Shown in pieces: positions 14,185 through 55,258 of a DNA stretch of 64,000 nucleotides (its first letter is position 1; each line of letters begins with the position of its first letter). The notes below the pieces were generated by a model. The model ran no database searches. It was not told the origin of the DNA and saw only the letters and a program-made list of their open reading frames with translations. The position numbers and the translations under genes are program-made. The stretch comes from Nucisporomicrobium flavum (GTDB lineage Bacteria; Actinomycetota; Actinomycetes; Mycobacteriales; Micromonosporaceae), in assembly GCF_016464385.1 (NCBI RefSeq), contig NZ_JADMLH010000001.1:248001-312000 (forward strand). Direction: 5' to 3'.

Positions 14185-15428
14185 GGGTCCGGCAGGTCGC
14201 GCATCCGCGGGACCGGGGAGAACAGGACGAAGAAGACGCCCGCCACCGCCCCCACGGCGCCGATCCACAGTGCCGCGTGCACGCCGATGAGCTCGCCGAG
14301 CACCCCGCCCAGCAGCGCGCCGATCGGGCGTACCCCGTAATTGACCGTGCGTTGTGCGCCCTTGACCAGGGACAGGCGGGACGCCGGGGTGGCCGCCGTC
14401 TGCAGCGAGCCGACCGCGATGTCGAGGATCATCACGCCGATCGCGGAGAGGAACTCCGCGGCGAGCAGCATGCCGATCACCGTCGGGCGGGGGCCGCCGG
14501 CGAGCGGGACCAGCACGAGCGGGAGCGGGAACGCGACGTACCCGAGGACCGTGACCGGGCCGATGCCGAACCGGCGGATGAGCCGGCCGGTGAGCGCCGC
14601 ACCGGCGAGCCCGCCCACGGAGCCGATGCCGACCAGCGCGCCGAGGAGCCCGGGGGAGATGCCCAGTGTCGTGGTCACGTACAGGATCTGCAGGGCGTGG
14701 AAGACGTAGTTGAAGAGGTTCATCGCGGTGACGCCGAGCAGCAGCTGTCGCAGGACCGCGGACCGGGCGATGAACGCCAGCCCGGATCCGATCCTCAGGC
14801 CGCCGTCGTCGCCGGCGGTCACCGCCGTCTCCGGCGGGGCGATCCGGGCCAGCAGCAGAGCCGATCCCAGGTACGAGAGCACGTCGGCGACCAGCGCGAA
14901 CGGCGCGGTCAGCACCTGCACGAGGACGCCGCCCAGGCCCGGGCCGGCCACGTACGACAGGGCGCGGGCGCCGTTGGTCAGCGAGCTGGCGGCGATGTAG
15001 TCGGGCCGGCGCACCACGGACGCGAACAGGCTGCCGTCCGCGACCTCGTAGAAGACGGTGAGCGTACCGATGGCGAACGACAGCGCGCAGAGGTGCCACA
15101 GGTTCAGCACCCCGGCGTACGCGAGGACCGGCACGACCGCGAGCAGCGCCGCCCGGCCCAGGTCCGCGACGATCATGACTCTGCGCTTGTCCGCCCGCCG
15201 GTCCACCCAGGCGCCGGCCAGCAGCGACAGGAAGAGGTTCGGTACCAGGACGGCGGCGGTCAGGTAGCCCATCTCGGCCGGCCCGGCACCGAGGGTGAGT
15301 ACGGCGAGCAGCGGGATCGCGATGAGCGTGACCTGGTCGCCGACGAGGGACACGACGTGCGCGGACCAGTAATGCCGGAACACCCGGTCGCGCAGCAGCC
15401 CGGGTCCGCGCCGGACGGCGGTGGTCAT
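14181..15428 (-). CDS. MFS transporter (drug-efflux-like)
   Basis: A 415-residue major facilitator with about twelve hydrophobic helices; the loop after helix 2 carries the family signature GAWVDRRADKRRVMI. It resembles the actinobacterial 12-helix exporters often annotated as enterobactin/macrolide exporters. The ATG overlaps the stop of the upstream ArsR-like regulator (ATGA), so the two form a regulator-exporter operon and the regulator probably controls the pump. Substrate is not inferable. Confidence 0.88.
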   Translation of the reverse strand: MTTAVRRGPGLLRDRVFRHYWSAHVVSLVGDQVTLIAIPLLAVLTLGAGPAEMGYLTAAVLVPNLFLSLLAGAWVDRRADKRRVMIVADLGRAALLAVVPVLAYAGVLNLWHLCALSFAIGTLTVFYEVADGSLFASVVRRPDYIAASSLTNGARALSYVAGPGLGGVLVQVLTAPFALVADVLSYLGSALLLARIAPPETAVTAGDDGGLRIGSGLAFIARSAVLRQLLLGVTAMNLFNYVFHALQILYVTTTLGISPGLLGALVGIGSVGGLAGAALTGRLIRRFGIGPVTVLGYVAFPLPLVLVPLAGGPRPTVIGMLLAAEFLSAIGVMILDIAVGSLQTAATPASRLSLVKGAQRTVNYGVRPIGALLGGVLGELIGVHAALWIGAVGAVAGVFFVLFSPVPRMRDLPDP

Positions 15429-29077: not shown

Positions 29078-29896
29078 GTGCCTTACGCAACCTCCGACGG
29101 CGCCGACCTCTACTACGAGGACTTCGGCAGCGGCGACCCCGTCGTGCTCATCCACGGCTGGCCCCTGTCCGGCCGCAGCTGGGAAGCCCAGATCCCCGCG
29201 CTCGTCGCCGACGGCAAACGCGTCATCACCTACGACCGCCGCGGCTTCGGCAAGAGCAGCCAGCCCTGGACCGGCTACGACTACGACACCTTCGCCGCCG
29301 ACCTGCGCGCCCTGCTCGAACACCTCGACCTCACCGGCGTCACCCTCGTCGGCTTCTCCATGGGCGGGGGAGAGGTAGCCCGCTACCTCGGCACGTACGG
29401 CACCGACCGGGTCAGCAAGGCCGTCTTCGCCGGCGCCGTCCCGCCGTACCTCTACAAGAGCGACGACAACCCCGACGGCGCCCTCGACGACGCCACCATC
29501 AAACAGTTCCAGGACGGCGTCACCACCGACCGCATCGCCTTCGTCGACGGCTTCGCCGAGAACTTCTTCAAGGCCGGCGGCACCCTCAAGGTCAGCGACA
29601 ACCAGGTCCGCTACGCCCAGGAACTCGCCCACGTCGCCAGCGCCAAGGGCACCCTCGACTGCATCGCCGCCTTCGGCCTCACCGACTTCCGCGGCGACCT
29701 GGCGAAAATCACCATCCCCACGCTGGTCATCCACGGCGACAGCGACGCGATCGTCCCCATCGAGCACAGCGGCAAGCGCACGGCGGAGAGCATCCCCGGG
29801 GCGAAGCTCGTGGTCATCCAGGACGGGCCGCACGGCATCAACGCCTCACACCCGACCGAGTTCAACGAGGCACTGCTGAGCTTCCTCAACAGCTGA
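29078..29896 (+). CDS. Alpha/beta hydrolase (non-heme chloroperoxidase-like)
   Basis: A 272-residue hydrolase with the nucleophile Ser in VGFSMGGGEVARY (about residue 96), acid in HGDSDAIVP (about 224) and His in DGPHGINAS (about 251); the GPHG ending is typical of the cofactor-free chloroperoxidase/perhydrolase group. The GTG start lies 11 bases after the ohr stop. Its place in the peroxide operon fits a role in peroxide or peroxy-acid metabolism, which is inference. Confidence 0.9.
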   Translation: MPYATSDGADLYYEDFGSGDPVVLIHGWPLSGRSWEAQIPALVADGKRVITYDRRGFGKSSQPWTGYDYDTFAADLRALLEHLDLTGVTLVGFSMGGGEVARYLGTYGTDRVSKAVFAGAVPPYLYKSDDNPDGALDDATIKQFQDGVTTDRIAFVDGFAENFFKAGGTLKVSDNQVRYAQELAHVASAKGTLDCIAAFGLTDFRGDLAKITIPTLVIHGDSDAIVPIEHSGKRTAESIPGAKLVVIQDGPHGINASHPTEFNEALLSFLNS

Positions 29897-30080: not shown

Positions 30081-31055
30081 TCAGGACAAACGGCCCAGCG
30101 CCCGATTCGTACGGTTCGCCCGCACCGCCGCCCGCTGCTGCGCCGCCGTCACCTCGATGTACCCCTGCGACGTCGTCAACGACGCATGCCCCAGCAACCG
30201 CATGATCTCCGAAGCATTCGCCCCGTCCTCGGCCAGCCGCGTCGCGAACGTATGCCGCAACGCGTGCAACTGCGCCCCCCGCGGCACCCGATCCGACACC
30301 CCCGCCCGCCGGAAACACGACTGCACCAGATACTGCAGCCCACCGCGCCGCAACGGCTCACCACGCCCATCCACCAGCAACGCATCATCCGGCCGCACCC
30401 GCCCGAACCGCACCCGCCGGCTCTCCACGTACCGCGCCACCACCGCATCCAACTCCGGCTCGATCGGCACGGACCGCGGCCGCCCACCCTTGCCCGCCAC
30501 CTCCACCCGCCGCTCACCGGGCCGCCCCACCACCGACCCGGTCCGCAACGCCAACAGCTCGGACAACCGCAACCCGGCACACAACGCCAGAGCCAGCACC
30601 ACCACATCCCGCTCCGGCCACGGATCCCGCTGCCGCTCATCGGCCCGGCTCACCGCCTCCAGCAACTGCTCCGGCGTGTCCTCACCCCGCAGCGGCTTAG
30701 GGGAGGGGACCGACACCCGCGGCTTCCCGACGGCCGGCATCGGATTCCCGGCGACCACGCCGTCGACCACCAGGAACCCGTAGAAGGAGTTCCACGTCGA
30801 CCACGCCCGATACACCGAGGCTGGCGCCCGCCCAGCCGCGAACGCCGCGAACGCCGACCGCAGCGAGCGAGGGGAGAGGTGACCGAGAGTGACATCCTCG
30901 GTGGGGACGTCGAGCGCTCCGGCAACGATGCGCAGGACGGCGGTCAGGTCGCGGCGGTAGGCGAGAAGGGTGTGCTGAGACGGCTTCTGTACGGCACGAG
31001 CACCGAGAAACTCCTCGACCAGCGACTCGACCGAAATGTCTTGTTCATCCTGCAT
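30081..31055 (-). CDS. Tyrosine recombinase of the Xer/phage-integrase family
   Basis: A 324-residue site-specific recombinase with an N-terminal SAM-like core-binding domain (about residues 8-100) and a C-terminal catalytic domain with all active residues: Arg163 (GLRLSEL), Lys189 (GKGGRPR), His264 and Arg267 (HALRHTFATR), His290 (GHASL) and Tyr299 (SQGYIEV). It lacks the arm-binding domain of larger phage integrases, so it is Xer-like in size. The ATG lies inside a perfect palindrome of Xer-site geometry. A TAATAT hexamer five bases before the ATG lies in the same palindrome. No excisionase or cargo is evident. A second, different tyrosine recombinase is at 52684-53652. Confidence 0.92.
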   Translation of the reverse strand: MQDEQDISVESLVEEFLGARAVQKPSQHTLLAYRRDLTAVLRIVAGALDVPTEDVTLGHLSPRSLRSAFAAFAAGRAPASVYRAWSTWNSFYGFLVVDGVVAGNPMPAVGKPRVSVPSPKPLRGEDTPEQLLEAVSRADERQRDPWPERDVVVLALALCAGLRLSELLALRTGSVVGRPGERRVEVAGKGGRPRSVPIEPELDAVVARYVESRRVRFGRVRPDDALLVDGRGEPLRRGGLQYLVQSCFRRAGVSDRVPRGAQLHALRHTFATRLAEDGANASEIMRLLGHASLTTSQGYIEVTAAQQRAAVRANRTNRALGRLS

Positions 31056-31073
31056 AAGGAATATTATGCAGGA
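31048..31073. promoter_or_regulatory. Perfect 10-base inverted repeat with 6-base centre over the recombinase start
   Basis: Arms TCCTGCATAA (31048-31057) and TTATGCAGGA (31064-31073) are exact inverses around GGAATA. Two arms with inner CATAA/TTATG and a six-base centre is the layout of Xer core sites such as dif. The left arm contains the start codon and the centre plus right arm contain a TAATAT -10-like hexamer of the recombinase gene. It may be the enzyme's crossover site, its autoregulatory operator, or both. Confidence 0.8.
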
Positions 31074-31482: not shown

Positions 31483-31510
31483 GATTGACATAATGTAGAT
31501 TATCGACCAC
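31483..31510 (-). other. dif: dif-like chromosome-dimer resolution site
   Basis: CATAATGTAGATTAT (31489-31503) agrees with the E. coli dif core at 14 of 15 positions. Read on the minus strand, the right arm is TTATGTCAATC, close to the XerD-arm consensus TTATGTNAA, and the left arm ends in CGATAA; the centre is TCTACA. The arms are asymmetric, as expected for a XerC/XerD site. It lies in the 562-base gene-free stretch 31056-31617, which otherwise shows no gene. Being the true chromosomal dif needs genome context. Confidence 0.7.
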
Positions 31511-33189: not shown

Positions 33190-34011
33190 ATGGCGGCGGC
33201 GCGGACCGGTGTGCGAGGGCTGAGCGGTGACGACCTGCAGATGATCCGGGACGGGCTGGCGGCCGGGCGTAAACCGCGGGTGATGTTCACGGAGTCGGCG
33301 GGTCAGATCGCGGGTCAGGTGGGTCAGGTGGTGACGCTGGCCGATCCGGCGGAGTCCGACGAGTGGGTGGTGGTGCGGTTCGGCCGTGACGAGTTGCCGT
33401 TCGCGCCGGGTGATCTGCAGGTGGCGCCGAAGGGGGCGGCGGCGCGCAAGGCTGCTCCCCCTCCCCCGGCTCCTCCGGTGCGCGTGGAGCCGGAGTTTGT
33501 CATCGACAAGCCGGTGCCGGTGCCGTCGGGTGCTGCGGGTTCGCGTGCTTCCGGGGCTTCCAGCGCCGGGGCTTCGGGTGGCTCCGGGGCGGGTGTTTCC
33601 GGGGCGGGGGGCCGGTCGGGCGGGGCCGCGTCGGGTGCCGCTGGGGCACCCACGACTGCTTCTGCCAATGCGCCGGCCGCTGCTTCGGCTCCGGCTCCGG
33701 CTCCGCGGAAGGCGCCGGGTCGGGTGGCCAAGCCGAAGCCGCCGCCGGGGTTGACGGTGACGCTGGCGTACACGGACGGCGAGTGGACGGTGGCGGCGAA
33801 TCAGGGCACGAAGGCGTTGGCGAAGCCGTATGTGATCCGTCCGGCCGAGGCGATGCGGATGGTGTCGCTGGTGGACGTGCCCGGGGTGCAGGAGGCGGTC
33901 GAGCAGATCCTGGCGGCGGAGCGGGCGGAGGCTGAGCAGCAGGCGGAGCGGTTACGCGCGGAGCTGGCCGAGATCGAGGCGCGGTTGCAGGAGCTTCGGG
34001 ACGCGGGCTGA
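33190..34011 (+). CDS. DUF6319-like actinobacterial protein with Ala/Gly/Pro-rich linker
   Basis: The 273-residue protein has a conserved N-terminal domain (about 1-85) with LSGDDLQMIRDGLAAGRKPRVMFTES and EWVVVRFGRDELPFAPGDL, a 100-residue low-complexity Ala/Gly/Ser/Pro linker, a small second domain (about 180-225) with PGLTVTLAYTDGEWTVAANQG, and a C-terminal coiled coil (AAERAEAEQQAERLRAELAEIE). The N-terminal domain resembles what databases call DUF6319; my recall of that label is not certain. AAAGGGGCGATTCG precedes the ATG. Confidence 0.72.
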   Translation: MAAARTGVRGLSGDDLQMIRDGLAAGRKPRVMFTESAGQIAGQVGQVVTLADPAESDEWVVVRFGRDELPFAPGDLQVAPKGAAARKAAPPPPAPPVRVEPEFVIDKPVPVPSGAAGSRASGASSAGASGGSGAGVSGAGGRSGGAASGAAGAPTTASANAPAAASAPAPAPRKAPGRVAKPKPPPGLTVTLAYTDGEWTVAANQGTKALAKPYVIRPAEAMRMVSLVDVPGVQEAVEQILAAERAEAEQQAERLRAELAEIEARLQELRDAG

Positions 34012-38143: not shown

Positions 38144-40608
38144 CGGCCATCCTCACGGTCGGGGAAAGCGGAGGGAACGGGAGCGCGGTCGGGGGCCGGG
38201 GCGTCCTCCAACTGGGTCATGGCGAGCGCCGCGGCTTCCGTACGGGTGCGGGCGCCGAGCTTGCGCATGCCCGCCCGGATGTGGGTGTCCACGGTCTCCG
38301 CGGAGATGCCGAGCTGCCCGGCGATGCGGCGGGTGGGCTCCCCCGCGGCGACCAGGCGCAGCACTTCGGCCTCCCGGCGGGTGAGCTGGGTGCCGGAGCG
38401 GGGGCTGCGGGTGTCGCGGTGCACGTGGTGCCGGCGCAGGCCCCGGCGGGCGCGGCCGGCGAGGACGACCAGTCCGGCGGTGTCGGCGAGCTGTTCGGCC
38501 TGCAGGAGCGCGTCGACCGCGCGGTGCGGGTCGCGGTCCTGCAGGCCGGCGGCGAGCAGGCAGCGGATCTGTTCGCGCAGGGCGGTGCCGGCCCACGCCT
38601 CGGCGGCGGCGGTGAAGCCGGTGCCGGTGGCCCAGGCGGTCAGGGTGCGGCGGGCCGCGGTGGGCAGCGCGGCGGGAACGGCGGGTCCGGGCGCGGGGGC
38701 GCCGGCGTCGTACGCGGCCCAGCGGGCGGTGATGTGGTGCAGGCCGGTGAGCAGCCCGGGCGCCTCGGTGTCCGGGGCGCGGGCGGCGCGGTCGGGCTGC
38801 CCGTCGAGCCAGGCCGCCTCGCGGGCCACCCACGCGGTCGCCGGGTGCGCGGCGTCGGCGCCGAGGCGGGCGCGGGCGGCGGCGAGCAGGCCGGTGTCGG
38901 CCTCGACCAGGGCGGTGGCGGCCAGCGCGTAGCCGCGCGCGTCGGCGGGCAGGGCGCGGTCGGTGAGGTCGGCGCTGCGGCGTACCACGTCGTCGACGGC
39001 GGGGGTGGCGCCGCGCAGCACGTCGGCCCAGTCGGCGGCGGCGAGGAAGCGGGTCTGCCAGCTGTACGCGAGGTCGCCCGCGCAGGCGTCGGCGGCGTGG
39101 CGGGCGGTGGTGGCGGCGTCGTCGAGGCGCCCGTCGGCGGCGAGGTGCTCGACGAGCAGCCAGGCGCTCCACCGGCCGGTGAGCGGGTCGGCGGTGCCGG
39201 CGGCGGCCGCGAGGGCCTGCTCCCAGCCGGGCGTACGGTGCGCGGCGCGCACGGCGGCGAGGGCGGCCGCGACCCCGGGGGCCGGTACGGGATGCCGCGC
39301 AGCGATCTTGTCGGCGGTGTCGAGGGCGCCGGTGGGGTCGGTGGCGAGGTCGGCCAGCAGCAGGATGCGGTCGCGGGCGGCCACCACGGTCGCCGAGGCG
39401 GCGTCGGGCACCGGGCGGACGCAGTCGCGGGCCGCCACCGGGTCGCCGCCCTGCAGCAGGGCCTCCCCGCGCAGCACGTCGGCCTCGACGCCGAGCGGCC
39501 GGGCGGTGGTGAGCACCCGGGCAGCGGCGTGCGGGCGCCCGGCGGACAGCAGCGCGTCGGCGGCGGCGAGGCGTACCCGCGGGTCGACCGTGACGCCGGG
39601 CAGCTCGCAGGCGAACAGCAGCAGGTCGGCACGGTCGCCGCCGCCGGCCCGGTCGGCCGCGGCGAGGGCCCTGCGGTACGCGCCCGGATGGTCCCCGGCG
39701 GCGGCGAGGTGCCGGGCGGCCTCCGCGTCGGGAGTCAGCGCGGCGAGCGCCTGGTGCAGCTCGGTGCGGGCGTCGCCGTCGAGCAGCCCGGCCGCGGTCT
39801 CGGCCAGGTACGCCGACACGGGCACGATGCCGTCGCCGGCCTGCTCGACGAGCCCGGCCTCGTGCAGCACGGCCGCGCCCGGGCCCAGCATCGCCGCGAG
39901 GGCGGGGCGCCCGAGCAGGCCCAGCGCGGCGAGCGCGGTGCGGGCGGGGCGGGGCAGGTCGGCCAGGGCGGTGGCGATCGCGTACGCCACCTGGTCGATG
40001 CCGGTGTCGGCGGCGCCGCGCCCCCCGGCGGCGTGCCGGGCCAGCGCGGTGACCGCCAGGGGGTTGCCGCCGGCGCGGGCCAGTACCGCCGCGAGCGCGT
40101 CGTCGCCGAGGTGCGGTGCGGTGCGCCGGGCCAGCGCCGCCGCGTCGGCCGGGCTCAGCGGCGGCACGTCGAGCCAGGCGGTGGCGGCGGCGCGCAGGGC
40201 GGCGACCGTGTCGGCGCTCAGCCGGTGCGGGGTACGCAACGCCACGACGACGCGTACGTGGGCGGCCAGGTGCGGCAGAGCGGCCAGGGTGGCGGGGTCG
40301 GCGTACTGCAGGTCGTCGAGGACGAGCAGCCCGCCGCGTACCCGGGAGCGCACCGCCTCGGCCAGCAGCGGGACGTCGTGCACGGGCAGGCGAGCCCGCA
40401 CCGCCCGCGACAGGGCGAGGGCGGGCACGGCGGCGAGCATGGCCAGGCCACCGCCGGCGTACGCGGTGCCACCCGCGGCGGCGGCGACGCGGCGCAGCAG
40501 CGTGGTGCGGCCCGAGCCGGGGGCGCCGGTGAGCACGACGAGGCCGGGGCGGCGCAGATGCGCGGCCGCGAGCCCGGCCAGGTCGTGCGATGCCACGCGC
40601 GCCCCCAT
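38140..40608 (-). CDS. Large ATP-binding LuxR-family (LAL) regulator
   Basis: An 822-residue LAL-type regulator. A P-loop, TGAPGSGRTTLLRR, is at about residues 24-37; the B strand LLVLDDLQYADP is near residue 95; the long middle (about 250-700) consists of helical repeats; and the C-terminus has a LuxR/GerE domain LTRREAEVLRLVAAGEPTRRIAGQLGISAETVDTHI at about 735-775. Such regulators often control secondary metabolism or sugar use. The ATG at 40608 precedes the P-loop by the usual distance. It overlaps the next gene (37592-38143). Confidence 0.9.
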   Translation of the reverse strand: MGARVASHDLAGLAAAHLRRPGLVVLTGAPGSGRTTLLRRVAAAAGGTAYAGGGLAMLAAVPALALSRAVRARLPVHDVPLLAEAVRSRVRGGLLVLDDLQYADPATLAALPHLAAHVRVVVALRTPHRLSADTVAALRAAATAWLDVPPLSPADAAALARRTAPHLGDDALAAVLARAGGNPLAVTALARHAAGGRGAADTGIDQVAYAIATALADLPRPARTALAALGLLGRPALAAMLGPGAAVLHEAGLVEQAGDGIVPVSAYLAETAAGLLDGDARTELHQALAALTPDAEAARHLAAAGDHPGAYRRALAAADRAGGGDRADLLLFACELPGVTVDPRVRLAAADALLSAGRPHAAARVLTTARPLGVEADVLRGEALLQGGDPVAARDCVRPVPDAASATVVAARDRILLLADLATDPTGALDTADKIAARHPVPAPGVAAALAAVRAAHRTPGWEQALAAAAGTADPLTGRWSAWLLVEHLAADGRLDDAATTARHAADACAGDLAYSWQTRFLAAADWADVLRGATPAVDDVVRRSADLTDRALPADARGYALAATALVEADTGLLAAARARLGADAAHPATAWVAREAAWLDGQPDRAARAPDTEAPGLLTGLHHITARWAAYDAGAPAPGPAVPAALPTAARRTLTAWATGTGFTAAAEAWAGTALREQIRCLLAAGLQDRDPHRAVDALLQAEQLADTAGLVVLAGRARRGLRRHHVHRDTRSPRSGTQLTRREAEVLRLVAAGEPTRRIAGQLGISAETVDTHIRAGMRKLGARTRTEAAALAMTQLEDAPAPDRAPVPSAFPDREDGR

Positions 40609-52683: not shown

Positions 52684-53652
52684 TCAGGCGCCGCTGCGAC
52701 GGACCCGCGCCGCCGCGATCGTGTACGCCGGGTCACGGTCGAGGTTGTGCCGGTCCCGGTCGTAGCGGCGGGTGGTGCGCGGATCGGCGTGACCCATCGC
52801 GTCCTGCACGTCTTCGAGGGGCACCCCCTCGGCGCGGGCCGTCGTGGCGAACGCGTGCCGCAGTGAGTGCGGCGACAACCGCTCCCAGCCCGGTACGCCG
52901 GCCTCCCGCGCGAGCCGCCGGACCAGCCGGAACACCGCGTGCCGGTCCAGGCGGGCCCCCGAGGCGGTGACCAGCAGCGGCCCGTCGAGCCGGTCCGCGG
53001 TGGTGCCCTGCGCGGCCGCGCGCTGCGCCAGGTACGCGTCCAAGGTGACCGCGGCGTACGGGGTCAGCGCCCGCCGCCGCGGCTTGCCGCCCTTGCCGAC
53101 GAACCGCACGCTGCGGTGCCCGCGCTCGACCCCCACGTCGGCGACGTCGAGGCCCACCAGCTCACCGACACGCAGCCCCAGGTCGGCCAGCAACGCGATC
53201 GCCGCGTGGTTACGGGCCGCCGCCGCTCCCGTGCCGGCCTGCGCGGCGGCCAGCACCGCGTCGACCTCCTCCGGGCTCAGCCCGACGGTGGCCGAGTGGT
53301 CGCGGGACACGAACGGCCTGTCCGCGCCGGCCACCGGGTTCGCGTCGACCGCCCGCAGTTTGACGAGGAAGTCGTACCAGCTGGACAGCCCGGACAGCTT
53401 GCGCGCCACCGTCGCCGGGGCCAGCTCGGCCGCCTCCAGGCCGCGCGCGTACGCGTTGACGTCCAGGAAGGACGCCCGCAGCGGGTCCACCTCCCGGGCG
53501 GCGCACCACGCCAGCCACGCCGCCACATCCCGCCGGTACGCGTCGCGGGTGTGCACGGACAGCCGCCGGTTCTGCAGCCACGCCTCGGTGACCTGCTCGG
53601 CGCTGCCGCCGACCGCGACCGCGCCGCCGCTCTGCCGGGGTACCAGGGACAT
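52684..53652 (-). CDS. Tyrosine recombinase, XerC/XerD-like
   Basis: A 322-residue site-specific recombinase of Xer size with an N-terminal SAM-like domain (QNRRLSVHTRDAYRRDVAAW) and a catalytic domain having GLRVGEL (Arg), GKGGKPR (Lys), HSLRHAFAT (His, Arg), GHADPRTT (His) and RRYDRDR (Tyr). It resembles actinobacterial integrases annotated as XerC/D or phage integrases. ATG codons at 53652 and 53661 are both in frame. The start lies close to the ABC-F stop, so it may be read from that gene's transcript. It is not adjacent to a site of Xer geometry that I could see. Confidence 0.92.
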   Translation of the reverse strand: MSLVPRQSGGAVAVGGSAEQVTEAWLQNRRLSVHTRDAYRRDVAAWLAWCAAREVDPLRASFLDVNAYARGLEAAELAPATVARKLSGLSSWYDFLVKLRAVDANPVAGADRPFVSRDHSATVGLSPEEVDAVLAAAQAGTGAAAARNHAAIALLADLGLRVGELVGLDVADVGVERGHRSVRFVGKGGKPRRRALTPYAAVTLDAYLAQRAAAQGTTADRLDGPLLVTASGARLDRHAVFRLVRRLAREAGVPGWERLSPHSLRHAFATTARAEGVPLEDVQDAMGHADPRTTRRYDRDRHNLDRDPAYTIAAARVRRSGA

Positions 53653-53665
53653 GCCCGCCATGATC

Positions 53666-55258
<1,593 letters not shown>

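Follow-up and report, generated by a model that had tools for sequence, protein, structure and literature searches.

The analysed stretch of 64,000 nucleotides, referred to here as the window, corresponds to C1:248001-312000 of a 9,020,180 bp assembly in 50 contigs. Its central part holds a dif site, a palindromic Xer-type site and a gene for a Xer-like tyrosine recombinase, set among copies of an octamer that all point toward dif:

29365..29372, plus strand: last copy of the octamer CGGGGGAG pointing toward dif on its left (the window has further copies on this side at 14651 and 27088)
30081..31055, minus strand: third Xer-like tyrosine recombinase, 324 aa, with R163, K189, H264, R267, H290 and Y299 present
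31048..31073, no strand assigned: palindromic Xer-type site with 10-bp arms and an exact 6-bp spacer, overlapping the recombinase start codon
31483..31510, minus strand: chromosomal dif, from its uniqueness, presence in relatives, position opposite dnaA and polarity switch
31483-31493, minus strand: XerD-type arm of dif in the XerC-to-XerD reading
31494-31499, minus strand: 6-bp centre of dif in the XerC-to-XerD reading
31500-31510, minus strand: XerC-type arm of dif in the XerC-to-XerD reading
33461..33468, minus strand: first copy of CGGGGGAG pointing toward dif on its right (others at 38338, 42700, 53891, 58120, 58390 and 62609)
52684..53724, minus strand: fourth Xer-like tyrosine recombinase, an open reading frame with a match at C1:300762-301580, in a separate clade

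The 28-bp sequence at 31483-31510, which the initial annotation had marked as dif-like, is present there and reads GTGGTCGATAA-TCTACA-TTATGTCAATC in the standard XerC-to-XerD direction, which is the minus strand. The canonical core claimed for it is confirmed, with the orientation amended to the minus strand: 14 of the 15 bases of the plus-strand sequence CATAATGTAGATTAT equal those of the E. coli dif core. The bipartite 28-bp sequence also fits the dif of the phylum and resembles the Frankia alni dif (CACGCCGATAATGCACATTATGTCAAGT, as quoted in Kono 2011; PMC3025954). A search for CGATAATNNACATTATGTCAA allowing up to three mismatches produced a single occurrence in the window (0 of 100 shuffles), and the genome-wide search proposed at the outset likewise produced a single copy in the whole 9,020,180-bp assembly. 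With up to two mismatches the sequence was found in 91 of the 100 genomes searched (own included), nearly always as one copy each. The genome encodes intact XerC and XerD genes, the former on contig C34 and the latter on contig C26, where XerD is flanked by alanine-dehydrogenase-like and ParA-like genes (neighbours named by eye). The site at 31483-31510 is the ordinary chromosomal dif of an Actinoplanes-type genome, and it is proposed from its sequence to be recombined by XerC and XerD.

That the window would span the replication terminus if this dif were chromosomal is supported by the uniqueness of the site, by its position opposite dnaA and by the polarity of the surrounding octamers. The dnaA-to-dif distance was 0.482-0.529 of the chromosome in every one of 18 relatives with finished or near-finished genomes; 17 of these are genus members and one belongs to the family. 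Here and in all counts below, the genus is taken to be Actinoplanes in the wide GTDB sense, with 60 members including the own genome; its loci are kin, and counts of loci are therefore non-independent. Over ±219 kb on the own contig CGGGGGAG occurs 72 times, 35 to the left of dif and 37 to its right, and every copy points toward dif, with the strand switch located at the site, between 29365 and 33461; the next most polar octamer gave 87:42. Across 53 genus loci, each about 20 kb long, 277 copies point toward dif and none away. The octamer is strictly polar genus-wide, and its copies in the window span 14651-62616. This distribution suggests CGGGGGAG as a candidate FtsK-orienting motif of Actinoplanes, a role that we infer from sequence. 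The octamer GGGNAGGG, the E. coli KOPS, showed no convergent polarity in the own genome. The GC skew suggested as a test at the outset was uninformative for placing the terminus: it was +0.013 on the left and -0.006 on the right, and the cumulative maximum of the stretch lay 21 kb from dif. Copies of CGGGGGAG are absent between dif and the palindrome over 32.8 kb summed over the genus loci, the mirrored interval having 15 copies and the one past the palindrome 10; because these loci form one clade, the motif-free gap is only indicative.

The protein encoded at 30081-31055 retains catalytic residues that are invariant in an 18-row alignment. Its best matches are the XerC and XerD models, at scores far under the equivalog cut-offs (160 bits for TIGR02224, whose cut-off is 335, and 143.5 for TIGR02225, whose cut-off is 329.6). 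In a tree of 78 proteins built with a quick method, the dif-linked and plasmid recombinases lie together on one side of the starred branch, and XerC, XerD and the fourth recombinase each form a separate clade. The scores below cut-off and the separate clade rule out that the adjacent recombinase is XerC or XerD itself: whereas the flagged 28-mer belongs to the XerCD/dif system, the enzyme encoded beside it is only distantly homologous to Xer proteins and has its own clade. The initial annotation had noticed neither this third Xer-like protein nor the link of the palindrome to dif. By profile, its best solved relative is E. coli XerD (1a0p, E 9.8e-30). The profile also matches, over its full length, PDB chain 9i5v_14, labelled as the ribosome-associated translation inhibitor RaiA (E 6.5e-24), which is probably a labelling matter. 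The AlphaFold2 model has a mean pLDDT of 80.5; its catalytic-tyrosine segment falls below 50, and the model was left out of the reading.

Among 17 genomes with the third recombinase, XerD was found in all 17 and a XerC-type protein in 13 (E 1e-30 with the XerD model), the exceptions at this threshold being G010, G015, G022 and G046. In the XerC of an Actinoplanes genome (L256, G035) an insert between residues 139 and 142 splits the match to the XerC of the own genome, which makes a missed match likelier than a loss in these four genomes.

The third recombinase gene adjoins dif in all 60 genus members, that is, the own genome, 52 members with a dif at up to two mismatches and seven with a diverged dif. 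All of the 52 carry the gene (72-97% identical) on the side of dif that has the XerD arm, with transcription pointing away from dif; in the remaining seven the gene is present and a dif of 3-5 mismatches lies 458-625 bp before it. When 20 window genes were followed across the 52 loci, the third recombinase was the only one present in all 52, the runners-up being present in 38 and 37. Outside the Micromonosporaceae (groups of 21, 14 and 3 loci) another shared window gene occurred in a single locus only. At least 80 named loci carry the gene and, among the matches listed, 56 of 80 have a dif (up to three mismatches) within about 5 kb. The genera among these listed matches are Micromonospora, Plantactinospora, Lentzea, Saccharothrix, Amycolatopsis, Saccharopolyspora, Kutzneria, Nocardiopsis, Thermobifida, Kribbella and Stackebrandtia, together with Acidimicrobiia MAGs.

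An even sample of the class contained the gene in 18 of 246 genomes at E 1e-40: the own genome, two of its family, 13 of family f31 and two in which it lies on an f8 contig (199 and 191 kb long). Besides the own genome, 12 of the 15 chromosomal positives have a dif within 5 kb. No dif was recognised anywhere in three gene-bearing f31 genomes (G151, G246 and G310), in which palindrome and gene are separated by 68 bp, 3.8 kb and 1.1 kb, respectively. In a sample of the order 46 of 200 genomes matched, and 20 loci were fetched and examined in addition to the own genome, G190, G291, G066, G067/L197, G309 and G073. Thirteen of the 20 fetched loci have both dif and the palindrome close by, and the other seven lack both out to about 8 kb from the gene. 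The seven Acidimicrobiia loci examined had no dif and no palindrome.

The palindrome reads TCCTGCATAA-TATTCC-TTATGCAGGA on the minus strand and is built of symmetric 10-bp arms ending in ATAA/TTAT around a non-palindromic 6-bp spacer. Its centre is indeed distinct from that of dif, as had been remarked, the two lying 436 bp apart. Its inner form, GCATAA-N6-TTATGC, is present in 51 of the 60 genus members and, among 40 other genomes, in G067; G025 and G043 have it at two places and the remaining genomes at a single one. In nine genus members the palindrome is decayed and the gene kept. A search within 1.5 kb upstream of the gene for at least eight of ten paired arm bases with ATAA/TTAT inside identified palindromes in 53 of 62 loci of the genus plus two, 39 of 86 on other chromosomes and seven of eight on plasmids (L195 standing for L200), in each set with a spacer of 6 only. 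Spacers of 3, 4, 5, 7, 8, 9 and 10 gave none in any of the three sets, and downstream control windows gave none in 54, 81 and 8 loci, respectively.

In the genus the palindrome overlies a -10-like TAATAT and the ATG of the recombinase gene, and since it covers the start codon a regulatory role is possible there. The palindrome could accordingly be an operator at which the recombinase, bound over its own promoter and start codon, represses its own expression, with its catalytic target elsewhere, for example at dif. Both this overlap and the nearness to the gene start in 53 of 62 genus-plus-two loci speak for this explanation. On chromosomes, however, the palindrome follows dif and not the gene. 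Among 148 chromosomal gene loci (L140 and L185 being from the same genome), 123 have a dif and 114 of these also have a palindrome at seven or more of ten paired arm bases, with pairing of at least 8/10 in 104 and at least 9/10 in 73. The median palindrome-dif distances were 488 bp (275-2714) and 425 bp (258-1291); 106 of the 114 loci have the palindrome no more than 1 kb from dif, and all of them have it within 2.7 kb. The gene lies more than 1.5 kb from dif (2-5 kb) at 15 loci (14 genomes), and at every one of these the palindrome is still 282-953 bp from dif; in L184 and L186 it is downstream of the gene.

A prediction fixed beforehand, that the palindrome would be near dif even though the gene is distant, held in nine of 11 genomes, at 280-702 bp from dif. 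These 11, in which the gene is about 7-12 kb from dif (five genomes) or on a different contig (six), were drawn from 17 candidates and had shown no gene within 5 kb of dif; of the other six, G341, G354 and G355 had a dif that close, and in G352, G356 and G357 no plausible dif was seen. The prediction failed in Gandjariella and in one MAG; in the latter dif is 147 bp from a contig end and the palindrome is on a different contig, 1.6 kb from the gene. As a control, 66 dif loci were taken from genomes in which no copy of the gene is linked to dif, and none had a palindrome at 7/10 or better (40 loci of class-sample genomes without a gene match and 26 of order relatives, including G066 and G097 with a homologue elsewhere). 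Of 53 genus-plus-two loci, 52 have the palindrome on the XerD side of dif; in the others it is on the XerC side in 39 and on the XerD side in 22 (n = 61), so that it has not merely been left in one ancestral place. The retention near dif in the nine genomes and at the loci with the gene 2-5 kb away, the downstream positions and the several Nocardiopsis-group loci with the palindrome 304-477 bp before the gene all argue against an operator. Because the palindrome follows dif, a purely regulatory reading is rejected as the main explanation, and we regard it as unlikely.

Ten genus genomes deviate in these sites, and in eight of them (L041, L068, L072, L258, L259, L260, L262 and L263) both sites are altered, dif in its XerC arm. 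Coupled drift of dif and palindrome is only suggestive and corresponds to about three changes on the tree. One way in which the sites could be coupled is a compound locus, at which the third recombinase cooperates with XerC or XerD, either by taking one arm of dif or by synapsing dif with the palindrome. The mostly short distance between the sites (0.25-1.3 kb) and the coincidence of XerC-arm change with palindrome decay in the eight genomes would fit such cooperation, although the coincidence amounts to about three changes on the tree. The spacers of dif and palindrome are, however, unlike in the same genome (TCTACA versus TATTCC here), which makes direct strand exchange between them unlikely. 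A compound locus is thus judged improbable.

Homologues with 36-40% identity occur in 57 plasmid records, from circular plasmids of Mycobacterium, Mycolicibacterium and Rhodococcus. Six of the seven fetched plasmid loci, as well as the G309 contig, have a like-built palindrome before the gene with differing arm letters and no dif, as in TGCTAGATAA-TCTATA-TTATCTAGCA and TCATGGATAA-CATTCG-TTATCCACGA; at plasmid locus L201 no palindrome was found before the gene. To judge from these plasmid sequences, which lack dif, the palindrome also goes with the recombinase. Large plasmids are described in parts of the literature as encoding their own multimer-resolution recombinases (PMC5357621, PMC11724359), and the third recombinase shares with these, as there portrayed, a gene with its own site nearby, whereas the chromosomal copies are positionally tied to dif. 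A plasmid origin of the chromosomal recombinase would be a guess; since the tree is unrooted, it accommodates transfer from plasmid to chromosome and the reverse alike.

These plasmid relatives and their like-built palindromes would also be expected if gene and palindrome were functionless leftovers of a mobile element (an IMEX or an integrated plasmid) fixed beside dif, and IMEX elements are known, from the relevant part of PMC9765430, to integrate near dif. Against a remnant, the catalytic residues are intact and the protein is 72-97% identical across the 52 genus loci, and proximity to dif is kept outside the Micromonosporaceae despite total loss of common neighbours. Leftovers would not be expected near dif once gene and palindrome part. 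Moreover, most genus members have a single palindrome per genome and hence no flanked element. A remnant therefore appears quite improbable. An IMEX proper would require two flanking dif-like sites and variable presence; here one dif and one palindrome are found, and dif is present in all 60 genus members (seven of them diverged) and the palindrome in 51 of 60. The alternative offered by the initial annotation, an extra dif marking a Xer-exploiting element, is accordingly not supported, the dif and the palindrome each being alone and no variable element being flanked.

Two palindrome patterns were found in viral sequences, in 14 and 21 stretches. None of these 35 viral loci has a related recombinase open reading frame nearby, which also counts against a remnant, and a reading of the palindrome as a phage or IMEX site was rejected. 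Three viral contigs (L299-L301) carry a 70% homologue in the chromosomal arrangement of dif, palindrome and gene; they look like host DNA from the border of a predicted prophage.

The best reading of the neighbourhood of dif, on present sequence evidence, would be a single-recombinase Xer system that coexists with XerCD/dif. One recombinase is linked to its own terminus site, as in systems of the XerS, XerH and XerL type. Such systems replace XerCD; here XerD (17 of 17 genomes), a XerC-type protein (13 of 17) and dif are present. In the sections of PMC5357621 and PMC9765430 consulted, XerS/difSL and XerH/difH resemble the present case in that one tyrosine recombinase gene adjoins the terminus site, but they replace XerCD, their arms are imperfect repeats and the difSL centre is 11 bp, whereas the system proposed here would be additional and has symmetric arms and a 6-bp spacer. 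The XerL/dif system of Legionellales, as set out in part of PMC9765430, has a single recombinase and uninterrupted inverted-repeat arms (10 and 12 bp). It is like the system proposed here in that one recombinase acts on uninterrupted inverted repeats, with one XerL plasmid-encoded beside its site; it differs in that XerL is the only Xer system in its host, whereas XerD, a XerC-type protein and dif coexist here and the site is near dif. In the portions of the open-licence PMC literature covered (PMC3025954, PMC8138268, PMC11537254 and PMC5993296 among it) neither a third recombinase nor a second site of resolution next to dif is described, and to that extent the variant would be one not previously described there.

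It is consequently rather probable, though far from assured, that the palindrome and the third recombinase constitute a second, single-recombinase resolution system beside XerCD/dif. The features that point to it are the presence of the parts and their co-occurrence, the links between palindrome and dif and, on plasmids, between palindrome and recombinase, the exact 6-bp spacing, the intact catalytic residues and the single site per chromosome in most genus members. In such a system the third recombinase would bind the palindrome as a homodimer. Replication would yield two copies of the palindrome, one on each sister, and if the sisters had become linked into a chromosome dimer these copies would be paired by two dimers of the recombinase, strand exchange across the 6-bp spacer then restoring monomers. 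Both dif and the palindrome would lie inside the zone of converging motifs of the putative FtsK-orienting type, and since the motifs converge on both sites, DNA translocation at the septum would deliver both; FtsK may then control the second system as well, and its purpose may be dimer resolution. Several observations count against this reading: the three f31 genomes with gene and palindrome in which no dif was recognised, the seven order loci and seven Acidimicrobiia loci lacking both sites, the two failures of the prediction and the nine genus members with a decayed palindrome. Moreover, two resolution systems side by side would cancel each other if both fired, and no mechanism of exclusion between the two was seen.

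The genera in which the gene is found are mostly mycelial, which is why a role of the second system in long multigenomic hyphae or in sporulation can be guessed. The chances are about even for the broader picture, in which many actinomycetes have two systems at one terminus, XerCD working at dif and a homodimeric recombinase of plasmid type at a palindromic twin site a few hundred bp off, and in which the second system may serve hyphae or spores and may have replaced dif in G151, G246 and G310. If true, the arrangement would break the rule of one resolution system per chromosome, would show a route by which chromosomes adopt a plasmid-type recombinase and would provide a natural double system for asking how the number of crossovers stays odd. 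It would also bear on chromosome separation in mycelial bacteria with many chromosomes per compartment. In addition, the analysis offers a candidate FtsK-orienting octamer for Actinoplanes and a possible explanation for the unassigned 'tyrosine-type recombinase' annotated in many genomes.

The fourth Xer-like recombinase lies about 21 kb from dif in the window. In nine genus loci (L044, L048, L050, L059, L069, L078, L079, L080 and L084) it is 2-7 kb from dif.
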